NCBI RefSeq assembly: GCF_003814555.1
Contig: NZ_RKQN01000002.1
Coordinates: forward strand, 682,001-746,000
Direction of reading: 5' to 3'
Source of the DNA: Vulcaniibacterium tengchongense
GTDB taxonomy: Bacteria > Pseudomonadota > Gammaproteobacteria > Xanthomonadales > Xanthomonadaceae
DNA length: 64,000 bases
Every line of letters begins with the position of its first letter. The stretch's first letter is position 1. The notes under the pieces are model-generated. The model searched no databases and was not told the origin of the DNA. It was given only the letters and a program-made list of their open reading frames with translations. Positions 49,256 to 54,660 of this stretch are shown piece by piece. A program made the position numbers and the translations under genes.

Positions 49256-50119
49256 GTGACCCGGACCCGACTGCCGCTCGCCGCCGCCCTGTTGCCCGCG
49301 CTGCTCGCCGCCTGCGCCGCCACCGGCGCGCCCGCCACGAACGATGCGCCGGGCCGGGCGATGCCGGCCGACGCCGCCGGCGCCGCGCTGGACGAGGCGA
49401 TCGGCGGCGCCTGGCGCACGCCGGCCAACGTCGCCCGCGACCGCTACCGCCACCCGAAGGAGACGCTCGGCTACTTCGGCGTGCGGCCGGACCAGACCGT
49501 GGTCGAGATCACCCCGGGCGGCGGCTGGTACGCCGAGATCCTGGCGCCGTACCTGCGCGAGCGGGGCCGCTACGTCGCCGCGGTCTGGGACGACGCGATC
49601 CCCGGCCAGCCCAAGTACCGCTACACGCTCAACGACCAGCTGCGCGCCAAGTTCGCCGCGAGCCCGGCGGTGTACGGCACGCCGGAGGTGCGCACGTTCG
49701 ATCCGCAGGCGCCGGACTTCGGCCCGCCGGCCTCGGCCGATGCGGTGCTGACCTTCCGCAACGCCCACAACTGGGTGTCCGACGGCAACGCCGAGGCCTA
49801 CTTCAAGGCGTTCTTCGACGTGCTCAAGCCGGGCGGCACGCTCGGCGTGGTCGACCACCGCGCCAAGCCCGGCACGCCGCTGGAGGCGATGAAGAAGTCC
49901 GGCTACCTGACCGAGGCGCTGGTGATCGGGCTGGCGCAGGACGCCGGCTTCGTGCTCGACGGCAAGAGCGAGATCAACGCCAACCCGAAGGACACCGCCG
50001 ACCACCCCAACGGCGTGTGGACCCTGCCGCCGAGCAACCGCCACGACCCGGCCGACGCGGCCCAGTACCAAGCCATCGGCGAGAGCGACCGGATGACGCT
50101 GCGGTTCCGCAAGCCTTGA
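49256..50119 (+). CDS. exported lipoprotein with class I methyltransferase fold
   Basis: A 287-residue protein from a GTG start with CGGAGGAC ahead. A lipobox LLAAC ends the signal near residue 20. The mature part has a SAM-type Rossmann fold: VVEITPGGGWYAEILAPYL (motif I form) near residue 79, AVLTFRNAHNW, and FFDVLKPGGTLGVVDHRA. This is the COG4798 'predicted methyltransferase' group. The oddity is a cytoplasmic-cofactor fold on a lipoprotein, since SAM is not known to be available in the periplasm. Either the fold binds another ligand or the export signal has another use. Confidence 0.82.
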   Translation: MTRTRLPLAAALLPALLAACAATGAPATNDAPGRAMPADAAGAALDEAIGGAWRTPANVARDRYRHPKETLGYFGVRPDQTVVEITPGGGWYAEILAPYLRERGRYVAAVWDDAIPGQPKYRYTLNDQLRAKFAASPAVYGTPEVRTFDPQAPDFGPPASADAVLTFRNAHNWVSDGNAEAYFKAFFDVLKPGGTLGVVDHRAKPGTPLEAMKKSGYLTEALVIGLAQDAGFVLDGKSEINANPKDTADHPNGVWTLPPSNRHDPADAAQYQAIGESDRMTLRFRKP

Positions 50120-50400
50120 GCGGGATCCGGGCGGGCGGAGCCCGGGCCCTCGTCCGGCTCCGCAAGGGACGGGGCTGCCGCCGCTCCTCTTCGCCCCGGG
50201 CGGGCGCAGCGCCGGTCGCGGACCGCGTCGCCCGAGATCAAGGCCGGCGCGCTTGCGATCGCGCGGCGATTCGCGCGCGATCGGGCGCCCGTGCCGTTCG
50301 ACGCGGCCGCGATCGCGGGCAGTCCCGCCTCCGGGAGTGAGCGGCGCGCGGAACACGGCCTCCTCTACGATTCGCGTCCGCCCCCCTTTCGCCTCCACGC

Positions 50401-50937
50401 GTGCTGATCGCCCTCAACAAACCCTACGGCGTGCTCTGCCAGTTCACCGACCGCAGCGTGCCGCCGCGGCGCACCCTGGCCGAGTTCGGCCTGCCCGCCG
50501 ACGTGTACCCGGCCGGCCGGCTCGACCACGACAGCGAGGGCCTGCTGCTGCTCACCGACGACGGCGGCCTCGCCCATCGGCTGACCGATCCGCGCCACAA
50601 GCAGCCCAAGACCTACTGGGTGCAGGTCGAAGGCGATCCCGACGACGCCCAGCTGGCCGCATTGCGCGACGGCGTCGTCCTCAACGACGGCCCGACCCGG
50701 CCGGCGCAGGTGCAGCGCATCGACGCCCCGCCGCTGTGGCCGCGCGACCCGCCGGTGCGCTATCGCAAGAGCGTGCCCGACGCCTGGCTGCAACTGACGA
50801 TCCGCGAAGGCCGCAACCGCCAGGTGCGGCGGATGACCGCCGCGGTCGGCCTGCCGACGCTGCGGTTGGTGCGGGTCGCGATCGGCGGCCACCGGCTCGG
50901 CGAGCTCGCCCCGGGCCAGTGGCGCCGCTGCGATTGA
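50401..50937 (+). CDS. rluE: 23S rRNA pseudouridine synthase, RluE-like
   Basis: A 178-residue RsuA/RluB-type pseudouridine synthase lacking an S4 domain, as in Rlu[30 protein letters not shown] with the catalytic Asp near residue 43, TYWVQVEG and [28 protein letters not shown] are the family blocks. It would modify U2457 of 23S rRNA by analogy to E. coli. The start is GTG at 50401. The 281-base gap upstream has no gene. Confidence 0.9.
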
Positions 50938-51066
50938 ATCGCGCTGCCTGAGTCGCGCCGCTGCCACGCGACCGCGCCGCACACCCGGCGCATCGCCCAG
51001 TCGCGCCGCCGTGCCGCGTCGCCGAGCAGCAGTGCTGCAGCCGCGCCATCGCGCCGCGCATGCCGC

Positions 51067-51094
51067 TTGCAGCCGCGCGCGATCGGAGTAGCAT
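51067..51094 (+). promoter_or_regulatory. candidate nadM promoter
   Basis: TTGCAG (51067-51072) and TAGCAT (51089-51094) are 16 bases apart. Transcription would start near 51101, which puts the 51103 hairpin at the very 5' end of the leader. Confidence 0.45.
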
Positions 51095-51102
51095 GAAGCC
51101 GA

Positions 51103-51123
51103 GCCGACGGACAGACCGTCGGC
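51103..51123 (+). promoter_or_regulatory. ACAGA-loop hairpin in the nadM leader
   Basis: Arms GCCGACGG (51103-51110) and CCGTCGGC (51116-51123) enclose the loop ACAGA (51111-51115). The hairpin ends 23 bases before the nadM ATG. The same hairpin, with one compensated pair (A-U changed to G-C) and the same loop, stands before nadV at 52211. The covariation argues for a conserved RNA structure, though a palindromic protein site is not excluded. Confidence 0.7.
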
Positions 51124-51146
51124 CACCACCACCGTGAGGGAGCCTC

Positions 51147-52196
51147 ATGGATTTCGATTACCTGGTCTTCATCGGCCGCTTCGAGCCGTTCCACAACGGC
51201 CACGCCGCCGTCGCCCGCCACGCGCTGGAGCGGGCGCGCAAAGTGATCTTCCTGGTCGGCTCCGCCGACACCCCGCGCACGATCAAGAACCCGTTCACCG
51301 TCGCCGAGCGCGCGGTGATGATCCAGTCCGCGCTGAGCGACGCCGCCGACCGCCTGCTGGTGCGGCCGCTGCGCGACCACCTGTACAACGAGAGCCAATG
51401 GATCGCCGCGGTGCAGCGCGCGGTCGCCGAGGCGGTCGCCGCCGACGGCGGGACCGAGGCGGCGCGGATCGGCCTGATCGGCCAGGACAAGGACGCCTCC
51501 AGCTATTACCTGCGCGAGTTCCCCCAGTGGCCGCTGGTCGACGTGCGGCATACGGAGACGCTGTCGGCGACCGAGTTGCGCCGCTACCTGTTCGAGGCCA
51601 ACCGGCTCGACAGCCACGGCGGCCTGATGCTGATCCGCGCCAACGTGCCCGGTCCGGTCTACGACATGCTCGACGCGTTCCGGCGCAACTCGCCTGCGTT
51701 CGCCCAGCTGGTCGCCGAGTACCGCTTCATCGAGCAGTACCGCGCCGCCTGGGCCGAGGCGCCGTATCCGCCGACCTTCGTCACCACCGACGCGGTGGTG
51801 GTGCATTCCGGCCACGTGCTGCTGGTGCGCCGCCGCGCCGAGCCGGGCAAGGGCCTGTGGGCGCTGCCGGGCGGCTTCGTCGGCCAGCACGAAGGGCTGC
51901 TCGAGGCCTGCCTGCGCGAACTGCGCGAGGAGACCCGGCTGAAGCTGCCGCTGCCGGTGCTGAAGGGCTCGCTGAAGCACCGCGAGGTGTTCGACCACCC
52001 CGAGCGCAGCCTGCGCGGGCGCACCATCACCCACGCCTTCCATTTCGAGATCCCGCAGGGCGAGCTGCCGCCGGTGCGCGGCGGCGACGACGCCGACAAG
52101 GCGCGCTGGTTCCCGGTCGCGCAGGCGCTGGACATGGGCCCGCAGCTGTACGAGGACCACCTGCACATCCTCGAATACTTCCTCGGCCGCGGTTGA
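51147..52196 (+). CDS. nadM: bifunctional NMN adenylyltransferase / Nudix hydrolase
   Basis: A 349-residue fusion. Residues 1-180 are an archaeal-type NadM nucleotidyltransferase: GRFEPFHNGH near residue 10 and LSATELRRYLF near residue 142. Residues 200-349 are a Nudix domain with the box GGFVGQHEGLLEACLRELREETRL. As in cyanobacterial Slr0787, the first domain makes NAD from NMN and ATP and the second hydrolyses ADP-ribose. It has no winged helix, so it is not the NrtR repressor. GAGGGAGCC precedes the ATG. It is followed by nadV after 61 bases, making a two-step nicotinamide salvage operon. Confidence 0.95.
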   Translation: MDFDYLVFIGRFEPFHNGHAAVARHALERARKVIFLVGSADTPRTIKNPFTVAERAVMIQSALSDAADRLLVRPLRDHLYNESQWIAAVQRAVAEAVAADGGTEAARIGLIGQDKDASSYYLREFPQWPLVDVRHTETLSATELRRYLFEANRLDSHGGLMLIRANVPGPVYDMLDAFRRNSPAFAQLVAEYRFIEQYRAAWAEAPYPPTFVTTDAVVVHSGHVLLVRRRAEPGKGLWALPGGFVGQHEGLLEACLRELREETRLKLPLPVLKGSLKHREVFDHPERSLRGRTITHAFHFEIPQGELPPVRGGDDADKARWFPVAQALDMGPQLYEDHLHILEYFLGRG

Positions 52197-52205
52197 ACCG
52201 CGGCC
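52185..52205 (+). promoter_or_regulatory. palindrome around the nadM stop codon
   Basis: Ten-base arms GGCCGCGGTT and AACCGCGGCC around a central G, with the TGA stop in the middle. A hairpin here would sit just before the 52211 hairpin, giving two stacked stems in the nadM-nadV gap. Confidence 0.5.
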
Positions 52206-52210
52206 TCCCC

Positions 52211-52231
52211 GCCGGCGGACAGACCGCCGGC
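52211..52231 (+). promoter_or_regulatory. ACAGA-loop hairpin in front of nadV
   Basis: Arms GCCGGCGG (52211-52218) and CCGCCGGC (52224-52231) enclose ACAGA. It ends 26 bases before the nadV ATG. Compared with the 51103 hairpin only one base pair differs and it changes on both sides, keeping pairing. Confidence 0.7.
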
Positions 52232-52257
52232 CTTCCCGACGCGAAGGAGCTTCCGTC

Positions 52258-53682
52258 ATGCAATGCCTCGACAACCTGCTGCTCAACACCGACAGCTACA
52301 AGGCCAGCCACTGGCTGCAGTACCCGCCCGGCACCGACGCCACGTTCTTCTACGTCGAATCGCGCGGCGGCACCTACGACCGCACGGTGTTCTTCGGCCT
52401 GCAGGCGATCCTCAAGCAGTACCTGGGCCGGCCCATCACCGGCGCCGACATCGACGAGGCGCGCGAGCTGTTCGCCGCCCACGGCGAGCCGTTCAACGAA
52501 GCCGGCTGGCGCTACATCCTGCAGCGCCACGGCGGCCGCCTGCCGCTGCGGATCCGCGCGGTGCCGGAGGGCACGGTGGTGCCGACCCACCAGGCGCTGG
52601 TGACGATCGAATCGACCGATCCGCAGGCGTTCTGGGTGCCCTCGTATCTGGAAACCCTGTTGCTGCGGCTGTGGTACCCGGTCACCGTGGCGACGATCAG
52701 CTGGCACGTCAAGCAGACCCTGCGCCAGTTCCTCGAGCGCACCAGCGACGATCCGGAGGCGCAGCTGCCGTTCAAGCTGCACGACTTCGGCGCGCGCGGC
52801 GTGTCCAGCGCGGAATCGGCCGCGCTCGGCGGGATGGCGCACCTGGTCAATTTCCTCGGCACCGACACCGTGTCCGGCCTGCTCGCCGCACGCACCTACT
52901 ACGACGAGCCGATGGCCGGCTATTCGATCCCGGCCGCCGAGCACAGCACGATCACCAGCTGGGGCCGCGAGCGCGAGGTCGACGCCTACCGCAACATGCT
53001 GGCGCGCTTCGCCAAGCCGGGCGCGATCGTCGCGGTGGTATCGGACAGCTACGACATCTACCAGGCGATCAGCGAGCACTGGGGCCGCACGCTGCGCGAG
53101 GAGGTGATCGCCTCCGGCGCGACGGTGGTGATCCGGCCCGACTCCGGCGACCCGGTCGAAGTCGTGCACCAGTGCCTGAGCCGGCTCGACGAAGCCTTCG
53201 GCCACACCGTCAACGGCAAGGGCTACAAGGTGCTGAACCACGTGCGGGTGATCCAGGGCGATGGCGTCAACCCGACCAGCATCCGCGCGATCCTCGAACG
53301 CGCGACCAGCTTCGGCTACGCCACCGACAACCTCGCCTTCGGCATGGGCGGCGCGCTGCTGCAACGGCTCGACCGCGACACCCAGAAGTTCGCCCTGAAG
53401 TGCTCGGCGGCGCGCGTCGACGGCCGCTGGATCGACGTCTACAAGGACCCGGTGATCGACAAGGGCAAGGCCAGCAAGCGCGGCCGGATGACCCTGGCGC
53501 GGCACCTGGAGTACGGCCACTACAAGACCCTGCCGCTGGCCGGCGAGGCGGTCGCGCTGGAGCCCGCGCAGGCGCCGCTGGGCTATGCCGACGCGCTGGA
53601 AACGGTGTGGGAGGACGGCGAGCTGCGCCGCGACTGGCGCTTCGCGCAGGTGCGCGAGCGCGCCGACGCCGCGCGGCTGTGA
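52258..53682 (+). CDS. nadV: nicotinamide phosphoribosyltransferase
   Basis: A 474-residue NAMPT/NadV: NTDSYKASHWLQYPPGTDATFFYVESRGG opens the protein, KLHDFGARGVSSAESAALGGMAHLVNFLGTDT and PAAEHSTITSWGREREVDAYRNML are the substrate-binding parts, VVSDSYDIYQAI and VIRPDSGDPVEVV hold the phosphoribosyl site, and NLAFGMGGALLQ follows. It joins nicotinamide to PRPP, making the NMN used by NadM just upstream. CGAAGGAGC is the ribosome-binding site. Confidence 0.95.
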   Translation: MQCLDNLLLNTDSYKASHWLQYPPGTDATFFYVESRGGTYDRTVFFGLQAILKQYLGRPITGADIDEARELFAAHGEPFNEAGWRYILQRHGGRLPLRIRAVPEGTVVPTHQALVTIESTDPQAFWVPSYLETLLLRLWYPVTVATISWHVKQTLRQFLERTSDDPEAQLPFKLHDFGARGVSSAESAALGGMAHLVNFLGTDTVSGLLAARTYYDEPMAGYSIPAAEHSTITSWGREREVDAYRNMLARFAKPGAIVAVVSDSYDIYQAISEHWGRTLREEVIASGATVVIRPDSGDPVEVVHQCLSRLDEAFGHTVNGKGYKVLNHVRVIQGDGVNPTSIRAILERATSFGYATDNLAFGMGGALLQRLDRDTQKFALKCSAARVDGRWIDVYKDPVIDKGKASKRGRMTLARHLEYGHYKTLPLAGEAVALEPAQAPLGYADALETVWEDGELRRDWRFAQVRERADAARL

Positions 53683-53703
53683 GCCGCCGCAGCGCGGCGC
53701 CGC

Positions 53704-54660
53704 TCAGTCGGCGTCGCGCTCGCCCTGGCCGGCGGTGGCCGCGACCGGCACCGAGTTCGCCGCCGGCCGGGTCAGCAGCCACACCCCGGCCAGCACCACC
53801 GCGGTGCCGAGCAGCTGCACCGCGGTGATCGCCTCGCCGAGCAACCAGGCGCCGAGGAACACCAGCGACACCGGGCCGATCACCGCCAGCTGCGCCGCGG
53901 TACCGGCGCCGAGGCGCGCCACCGCGCCCATCGTGAAGGTCACCGGCAGGAAGGTGCAGAACACCGCGTTGGCCAGCGCCAGCGCGTAGGCGGTCGGGCT
54001 CAGCTGCAGCAGGTGCGCCGGATCGCGCACCAGCAGGTAGTGGACCGCCGTCGCCGCGGTCGACACGCACATCGCCCAGGCGACCAGGCGCAGCGAGCCG
54101 ATCCGCTTCAGCAGCTGCCCCGACAACGCCAGGTACAGCGCGTAGCTCAACGCCGCCAGCAGCACCAGCGCGCTGCCCAGCAGTACGTGTTCGCCCTCGA
54201 CCCGCAGGTTCTCGACGAACACCAGGGCGACGCCGGCGTAGCTGACCGCCAGCGCGATCCACTCGCGCCGCGCGACCCGGCGGGCGAACGCGAACACGCC
54301 GATCAGCAGCACGAAGGTGGGGTTGAGGAACAGGATCAGCCGCTCCAGCGACACCGGCACGTATTCCAGGCCCCAGAAGTCGAGCAGGCTGGAGAGGTAG
54401 TAGCCGAGCACGCCGAGGATCACGATCAGGCCGAAGTCGCGCCGGCCGATCGGCGCCAGCCCGGGGCGGCGCGCCTCGCGCACGCCCAGCAGCAGGAACA
54501 GCGGCAGCGAGAACAGCATCCGCAGCGCCAGCACGTCGAGCGCGTCCAGCCCGTGGCGGTACTGGAACTTGGCCAGGATCGCCTTGGCCGAGAACAGCAC
54601 CGCGCCGGCCGCGCCGAGGGCCAGGCCGAGCCGGCGCGCGCCGGCGGGGGAGGACGTCAC
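53704..54660 (-). CDS. EamA/DMT-family permease
   Basis: A 318-residue membrane protein with about ten helices and two EamA repeats: GLALGAAGAVLFSAKAILAKFQYRHGLDAL, LLDFWGLEYVPVSLERLILFLNPTFVLLIG and AVFCTFLPVTFTMGAVARLGAGTAAQLAVIGPVSLVFLGAWLLGEAIT. The GTG at 54660 is the most upstream likely start and has no good ribosome-binding site. Substrate unknown. It converges with nadV, so it is probably not part of NAD salvage. Confidence 0.85.
   Translation of the reverse strand: MTSSPAGARRLGLALGAAGAVLFSAKAILAKFQYRHGLDALDVLALRMLFSLPLFLLLGVREARRPGLAPIGRRDFGLIVILGVLGYYLSSLLDFWGLEYVPVSLERLILFLNPTFVLLIGVFAFARRVARREWIALAVSYAGVALVFVENLRVEGEHVLLGSALVLLAALSYALYLALSGQLLKRIGSLRLVAWAMCVSTAATAVHYLLVRDPAHLLQLSPTAYALALANAVFCTFLPVTFTMGAVARLGAGTAAQLAVIGPVSLVFLGAWLLGEAITAVQLLGTAVVLAGVWLLTRPAANSVPVAATAGQGERDAD

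Follow-up and report, generated by a model that had tools for sequence, protein, structure and literature searches.

A two-hairpin RNA element before the NAD-salvage genes nadM and nadV of Xanthomonadales, other Proteobacteria and phages: a candidate translational switch

Introduction

Guanidine-II (mini-ykkC) riboswitches lie in mRNA leaders as stem-loops near the ribosome-binding site, joined by a linker of variable length. They are described as two small stem-loops that dimerize by loop–loop contact (PMC5486947), and the element reported here, a pair of small hairpins (HP1 and HP2) before the NAD-salvage genes nadM and nadV, resembles them in design. The guanidine-II loops, however, are alike and read ACGR, whereas here HP1 carries AYAGA and HP2 carries GGANN, the second loop is the Shine-Dalgarno sequence itself, and the genes are those of NAD salvage. 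Membership in guanidine-II, with ACGR in both loops, was rejected from the loop counts of HP1 and HP2. A different precedent is the operator of phage MS2, in which the coat protein binds a hairpin around the replicase start codon that covers both the Shine-Dalgarno sequence and the start codon. HP2 of nadM has the same layout over these two signals; the element differs from the operator in having a pair of hairpins, in serving metabolic genes and in carrying its conserved loop in the upstream one.

Leader RNAs of NAD genes have been described as the NAD+-I (nadA motif) and NAD+-II (pnuC motif) riboswitches, the former with two tandem domains of which the second lies near the ribosome-binding site (PMC7297122, PMC7708056), features that the present element shares. 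NAD+-I differs in being built of bulged stem-loops with a ACANCCCC bulge, and NAD+-II in its three helices and long-range pseudoknot (PMC10085692), whereas the element here consists of two plain hairpins with AYAGA. NAD genes of Proteobacteria are also described as regulated by NrtR and NadQ, transcription factors with DNA operators, the NadQ site having the consensus ATRCTC-N5-GAGYAT (PMC5343134); the element here, in contrast, is RNA. A section heading of one study states that the NAMPT pathway functions in Xanthomonas campestris; a term search of its main text yields no operon, nadM or riboswitch (PMC10907753).

Results and Discussion

The nadM–nadV leaders of Vulcaniibacterium tengchongense

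The window is a stretch of 64,000 nt (NZ_RKQN01000002.1, positions 682,001–746,000, forward strand), to which all coordinates in Table 1 refer. An earlier note on this DNA had described two 21-nt hairpins with ACAGA loops before nadM and nadV that differ by one compensated pair. Both were found exactly as described: GCCGACGG-ACAGA-CCGTCGGC stands 23 nt 5' of the nadM ATG and GCCGGCGG-ACAGA-CCGCCGGC stands 26 nt 5' of the nadV ATG, direct comparison confirms the single compensated pair as their sole difference, and both are present in the predicted folds of the leaders. When up to three mismatches are allowed, the two strands of the window together hold five HP1 matches, where shuffled sequence gives 0.42 on average, and the two exact sense-strand copies among the five are those of nadM and nadV. 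Across the whole 3.58-Mb genome GCCGNCGG-N5-CCGNCGGC occurs at 15 sites, with the ACAGA loop in only the two HP1, and a hairpin covariance model places the same two at E 3.2e-4 and 0.0028, the next match being at E 0.42. Pattern and covariance model thus give just two good copies in place of the many identical ones genome-wide that the note had named as speaking against a regulatory element, and a dispersed repeat is ruled out.

Table 1. Features of the nadM–nadV locus in the window
Feature	Coordinates	Strand	Description and basis
Putative promoter of the nadM–nadV operon	51067..51094	+	TTGCAG 51067–51072, 16 nt, TAGCAT 51089–51094; read from sequence
HP1 of nadM	51103..51123	+	8-bp stem, loop ACAGA at 51111–51115; pattern search, predicted fold, covariation
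HP2 of nadM	51132..51150	+	CCGTGAGGGAGCCTCATGG (also written CCGUGAGGGAGCCUCAUGG); GGA in loop, start codon in 3' arm; predicted fold, Shine-Dalgarno-hairpin control, covariation of second helix
nadM	51147..52196	+	Bifunctional NMN adenylyltransferase/Nudix hydrolase, 349 aa; NF003788, 699.6 bits
HP1 of nadV	52211..52231	+	8-bp stem, loop ACAGA at 52219–52223; pattern search, predicted fold, covariation
HP2 of nadV	52238..52257	+	GACGCGAAGGAGCTTCCGTC (also written GACGCGAAGGAGCUUCCGUC); GGA in apical loop; predicted fold, Shine-Dalgarno-hairpin control
nadV	52258..53682	+	Nicotinamide phosphoribosyltransferase (Nampt-type), 474 aa; NF006629, Pfam NAMPT_N

The putative promoter, likewise proposed in the note, is plausible. 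Among 86 nadM leaders of relatives, 84 show TTGNNN-N15-19-TANNNT no more than 60 nt 5' of HP1, and 70 have 8 or 9 nt between a TAG[CG]AT box and the HP1 stem; neither pattern is seen in any of the 87 nadV leaders. Because promoter boxes precede the nadM HP1 and are absent at nadV, the nadM HP1 probably opens the mRNA, with the nadV HP1 internal to it. A hairpin at the mRNA 5' end is what one would look for in a passive structure, a 5' stabilizer or ribosome standby hairpin that balances translation of the two genes and senses nothing. Such a structure would need neither an operon-internal copy nor the same AYAGA loop and G–C closing pair in bacteria and phages, and we consider it improbable.

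Conservation within Xanthomonadales

Public genomes were scanned with a NadM alignment. The best 80 of 489 relatives were kept and seven orthologue loci added, giving 87 loci from, among others, Lysobacter, Xanthomonas, Stenotrophomonas, Luteimonas, Arenimonas, Pseudoxanthomonas, Dyella and Frateuria; at least two of the seven duplicate places among the 80, and within the 87 at least two places occur twice (L017 and L053, identical; L019 and L108, on contigs of equal length and overlapping in range). One minus-strand locus, L020, was excluded from the 87; its nadM element is in alignment A5 (see below), and its nadV element is also present. The HP1 core, an AYAGA loop closed by G–C (pattern GGANNGAC[C/T]), precedes nadM in 86 of the 87 loci and nadV in all 87, so that the hairpin is found at the same position in related genomes, the check that the note had set. 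The sole nadM miss, L125, is on a contig that starts 77 bp before the match, too near the gene to tell.

A search of 397 genomes of the order with the two-hairpin model R1 matched 107 at E ≤ 0.05. Among the matches listed, 61 genomes reach E ≤ 2.5e-4. Two matches of this strength are present in 55 of them, on one contig about 1.1–1.4 kb apart, as two genes require, in 54 genomes and on two contigs in the other (G677). The remaining six (G749, G606, G678, G773, G742 and G037) have a strong match before nadV or nadM, with a second match at E 0.0038 in G037. In one relative (G022; L021, about 2600–2760) the nadM–nadV spacer is lengthened by inverted GGTGGGTCTTGACCCACC-like repeats, and HP1 still adjoins nadV.

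The orientation of the hairpins is fixed. Cores GGANNGACC with at least four of six further pairs lie on the coding strand in 156 of 162 instances in the best 80 loci, the other six lying at a distance from the nadM and nadV genes, and in phages all 103 matches to model R3 within the best 80 of 277 nadV loci have sense orientation. Occurrence on one strand only, together with change of the whole stem sequence while complementarity is kept, argues that the element is RNA and not a DNA operator. The 21 bp are nearly palindromic, and the note had offered a palindromic operator, as for a transcription factor such as NrtR or NadQ, as an alternative to a cis-acting RNA; this we rejected as extremely improbable, since it is contradicted by the single orientation, the freedom of the stem sequence and the absence of promoter boxes at the nadV copy. 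A search with an NrtR model is a weak test, because its cut-off was passed by none of 22 genomes and none of 14 controls. Below the cut-off, the sole match in the V. tengchongense genome is the Nudix domain of NadM itself, and near-full-length matches occur in G358, with the element (197.9 bits), and in G281, without it (154.9 bits).

Covariation and loop conservation

Among 116 distinct HP1 sequences 91.2% of cells pair, and covariation is 0.383 compared with at most 0.139 for a slid partner, a value reached by none of 500 shuffles. In alignment A5, which comprises 58 two-hairpin sequences with other families added, covariation is 0.811 against at most 0.196 in slid controls, both helices contain pairs changed on both sides, and both are recovered by RNAalifold; HP2 positions in A5 were picked by longest stem, which biases them toward pairing, and a count by fixed rule (see below) serves as control. 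For alignment A7, 35 HP1 of phages, Cupriavidus, Burkholderia, Azospirillum and G860, the corresponding values are 0.858 and at most 0.278, although these rows lean toward the R3 structure because the R3 model found them. L288 nadV, L301, L304 nadV and L307, which are without the core pattern, are omitted from A7; the nadM leaders of L049 and L058 were removed from alignment A4 as misaligned, and duplicate HP1 rows were removed before HP1 sets were analyzed. Across bacteria and phages HP1 stems are replaced wholly while pairing persists.

In contrast to the stem, the innermost G–C pair and the loop A-Y-A-G-A are nearly invariant across aligned HP1, partly as a consequence of search patterns that fixed most of these positions and left the loop Y and the outer stem free. 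The 209 distinct aligned sequences selected by the core pattern have the loops ATAGA (103), ACAGA (98), AGAGA (5), ACTGA (2) and AAAGA (1). Pair 9–17 is GC in 46 sequences of A5, AU in 6, GU in 5 and UG in 1, and in A7 it is GC in 20, CG in 8, AU in 6 and GU in 1. In several lineages the second base of the core GGAYAGACC becomes A, U or C with a compensating change, and AYAGA stays.

A second hairpin that presents the Shine-Dalgarno sequence

A second conserved hairpin, HP2, which the earlier note did not mention, lies 3' of each HP1 and directly before the start codon; its loop presents the Shine-Dalgarno GGA. Most HP2 loops read GGANN, and in the aligned set HP2 lies about 8–19 nt 3' of HP1. 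For the control we applied a fixed rule (GGA 5–19 nt before ATG, a 5-nt loop starting there, at least three uninterrupted pairs) and counted only ORF starts that possess such a GGA. By this rule a Shine-Dalgarno hairpin is found at 71 of 71 distinct ORF starts with HP1 20–75 nt upstream, against 9 of 115 other ORF starts in the same loci, and in phage loci at 53 of 58 nadV genes against 11 of 149 other ORFs; as the sequences are related, these counts are a contrast and not independent events. Inspection by eye revealed no evident loop–loop pairing between HP1 and HP2.

A hairpin loop that displays GGA at the ribosome-binding site is also what a host protein of the CsrA/RsmA type could bind, at HP2 and at HP1, to repress translation, and the note had allowed for such a site at the GGA of HP1. 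There the proposal fails, because GGA becomes AGA, UGA or CGA with compensation while AYAGA stays, and its GG pairs with CC; the GGA of HP2 is needed as Shine-Dalgarno sequence anyway. We give repression by such a protein a slim chance.

Specificity and known RNA families

The NAD+-I and NAD+-II riboswitches are among the 4227 models of Rfam. Release 15 gave no match at E ≤ 1 in positions 50000–54500 of the window, and in ten related loci it gave only four sub-threshold microRNA-type matches, all in L191 and far below gathering scores, which begin inside nadM and end in the nadM–nadV spacer. The element seems new, in that neither an Rfam family nor a description of the two hairpins was found in Rfam or in literature text searches, to which subscription papers were mostly closed.

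Outside carriers, the best R3 match in the class search (33.9 bits, E 2.9e-6, in G379) sits inside a 725-codon open frame, so E-values of this model are optimistic for GC-rich DNA; the next match is at E 0.0017. In the class sample, the weak R1 matches found beyond the order do not stand before NAD genes. Nor do the weak matches inspected in three of 28 genomes searched more sensitively (E ≤ 0.04), which lie inside open frames (G006), in a terminator-like hairpin (G823) and opposite an open frame (G807). By these comparisons the element is nearly restricted to NAD-salvage operons.

Reach into other bacteria

Beyond Xanthomonadales, two other gammaproteobacterial families possess the two-hairpin element, as do Cupriavidus, Burkholderia and Azospirillum. 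A search of 369 genomes of the class detects nadM in 15 at E ≤ 1e-40. Thirteen of these orthologues are outside Xanthomonadales; three of them (L173, L174, L175) carry the element and ten lack it. The order of one carrier has nadM in 26 of 63 genomes; a script finds HP1 and HP2 before the gene in 20 of the 26, one (L204) has a variant with a 6-nt loop, seen by eye, and five (L206, L210–L213) are without the element. Unlike those of Xanthomonadales, the stems in this order are AT-rich, for example GUUUGG-AUAGA-CCAAAC followed by UCAGUAAGGAGUUUACUGA.

Four of 296 genomes of the phylum were matched at E ≤ 0.002, namely V. tengchongense itself (G000), G046, G860 and G906. G860, which lies outside the class, has the element before both nadM and nadV, and the weak match in G906 is without the HP1 core. 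An extra potential hairpin is seen in G860 between HP1 and the Shine-Dalgarno hairpin (L314, 1501–1570 and 2829–2900; AGGGGUG-UCU-CACCCCU before nadV). Because linker length varies and G860 seems to hold this extra hairpin, a fixed tertiary fold is not evident.

On Azospirillum plasmids the element precedes the NAD+ synthase gene nadE (L317:3610–3651, L319:6114–6155) in addition to nadM, and no element was found in these two loci before the nicotinate phosphoribosyltransferase gene 3' of nadE. Three further alphaproteobacterial loci without R3 match, from Methylosinus pOB3b3 (L318, before 3977 and 5117), Rhodobacteraceae S2214 (L320, before 3977 and 5172) and Novosphingobium p2 (L321, before 3992 and 5116), show by eye hairpins upstream of nadM and nadV with the loop GGAGU or GAGGU, followed in some cases by a Shine-Dalgarno hairpin; these may represent an additional loop class of the element.

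Phages and plasmids

Among 22 named phage and plasmid records chosen for encoding nadM or nadV, eight have an R3 match at E ≤ 0.001 and 14 do not. The eight comprise Xanthomonas phage LucasX, Rhodobacter phage RcXuper, Bacteriophage DSS3_MAL1 and Phaeobacter phage MD18, and on the bacterial side Cupriavidus metallidurans CH34, Burkholderia cenocepacia, Azospirillum sp. B510 and A. oryzae. In IMG/VR 17 of 27 nadM loci match at E ≤ 0.01, and of the best 80 of 277 nadV loci 65 match at E ≤ 1, 57 have the match directly before nadV, and 15 are without any; these contigs include several near-copies, and the nadV and nadM sets partly overlap. In seven phage loci, one of them (L396) a weak match, the element precedes nadV and no NadM is encoded within the 5–6 kb examined, though NadM may lie elsewhere on the contig.

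Variants of HP1 occur in phages. Before nadV in L301, L302 and L307, and within 75 nt of it in L340, L353, L355 and L376, HP1 variants have the closing pair turned to C–G and the loop AGAGA, AGUGA or GGAGA, followed in L353, L355 and L376 by a Shine-Dalgarno hairpin, AUAC-GGAGA-GUAU. Stenotrophomonas phage Marzo (L280, before 2480 and 3560) and phage DLP_6 (L282, before 2489 and 3680) have nadM and nadV with leaders that resemble the Shine-Dalgarno hairpin, such as GAGAAGGAGUUUCUC, and have no HP1.

A possible mechanism

Both helices, the conserved loop, the sense orientation and the position before nadM and nadV are demonstrated by comparison, and on conserved position, covariation and restriction to the sense strand at genes the earlier suggestion of a cis-acting RNA tied to NAD salvage holds. 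The element looks like an undescribed switch controlling the amount of the NadM and NadV enzymes. It most likely acts on translation, given that the Shine-Dalgarno sequence is in the HP2 loop, the start codon is in or beside the stem, and one mRNA holds one copy per gene. HP1 would be the recognition part, a stem of nearly any sequence with a G–C-closed pentaloop AYAGA (rarely AGAGA, ACUGA or AAAGA), and HP2 the expression platform, holding the Shine-Dalgarno GGA in its own 5-nt loop, with the start codon within its 3' arm or immediately beyond it. A factor that recognizes HP1, with or without HP2, would alter access of the ribosome to HP2, and this access would set translation of nadM and nadV, each through its own copy of the element on the one mRNA.

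As to the factor, phages that infect unrelated hosts have the element alongside nadM–nadV genes of their own, which suggests that the sensor travels with the module and is self-contained, and hence is the RNA itself, our first choice, or a protein of the module. The second option is the main rival of a riboswitch: NadM, which has a Nudix domain, or NadV would bind the AYAGA hairpin and repress its own mRNA, in the manner of the MS2 coat protein. Hairpins recognized by proteins typically combine a variable stem with a short conserved loop and closing pair, and HP1 matches this pattern. In bacteria and phages alike the element is found with nadM and/or nadV, so that the binder would always be present. 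Against autogenous control stand the copy before nadE in Azospirillum, the seven phage loci with no NadM in the examined stretch, where it may lie elsewhere on the contigs, and at least ten nadM orthologues that exist without the element. The first two of these tilt the balance toward RNA and metabolite over NadM as sensor, and we regard autogenous control as rather doubtful.

We therefore favor, at a probability of roughly one half, a translational two-hairpin cis-regulatory RNA of guanidine-II-like design in which the sensor is most likely the RNA itself, binding a metabolite of the NAD pathway; NAD+, NMN, nicotinamide and ADP-ribose are candidate ligands. That phage and bacterial modules carry the element with unrelated stem sequences speaks for this reading, as do the conserved position, the covariation, the contrast in Shine-Dalgarno hairpins between target and other ORFs, and the operon-internal nadV copy that lacks promoter boxes. 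Against it, HP1 alone is small for an aptamer, many nadM and nadV genes are without the element (10 of the 13 orthologues, 14 of the 22 records and 15 of the 80 phage nadV loci, the best 80 of 277), and two Stenotrophomonas phages have the Shine-Dalgarno hairpin without HP1. A broader proposal, which we put forward more tentatively, is that the element may form a new minimal two-hairpin riboswitch class that senses NAD+ or a precursor in Xanthomonadales, other Proteobacteria and many of their phages, with the AYAGA, AGWGA and, in some alphaproteobacteria, GGAGU/GAGGU loops as subclasses in the same gene context, and that in phages it tunes NAD-rebuilding operons able to counter NAD-depleting immunity.

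The element suggests a regulator through which Xanthomonas, Stenotrophomonas, Lysobacter, Cupriavidus, Burkholderia and others would control NAD salvage, and an RNA of 50 nt, present in one copy per gene, might reveal how these operons monitor the NAD pool. Reconstitution of NAD+ by phages is a known counter-defense against NAD+ depletion, described for another pathway, NARP1 (PMC12774641), and the element is present in phage nadM–nadV operons.

Neighboring genes in phage operons

In some phage operons the element stands before a small gene of unknown function that itself precedes nadM. Such genes include L328:1113–1439, L358:252–581 and L351:120–446 (the first two phrog_12218), L341:87–443 with its relatives (no family), and L397:932–1390 (phrog_7661). 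Other phage operons contain a gene beginning LKHTKGNLLDLAEAG, which PHROGs annotates as a phosphatase and which has no Pfam match; its product looks macrodomain-like.
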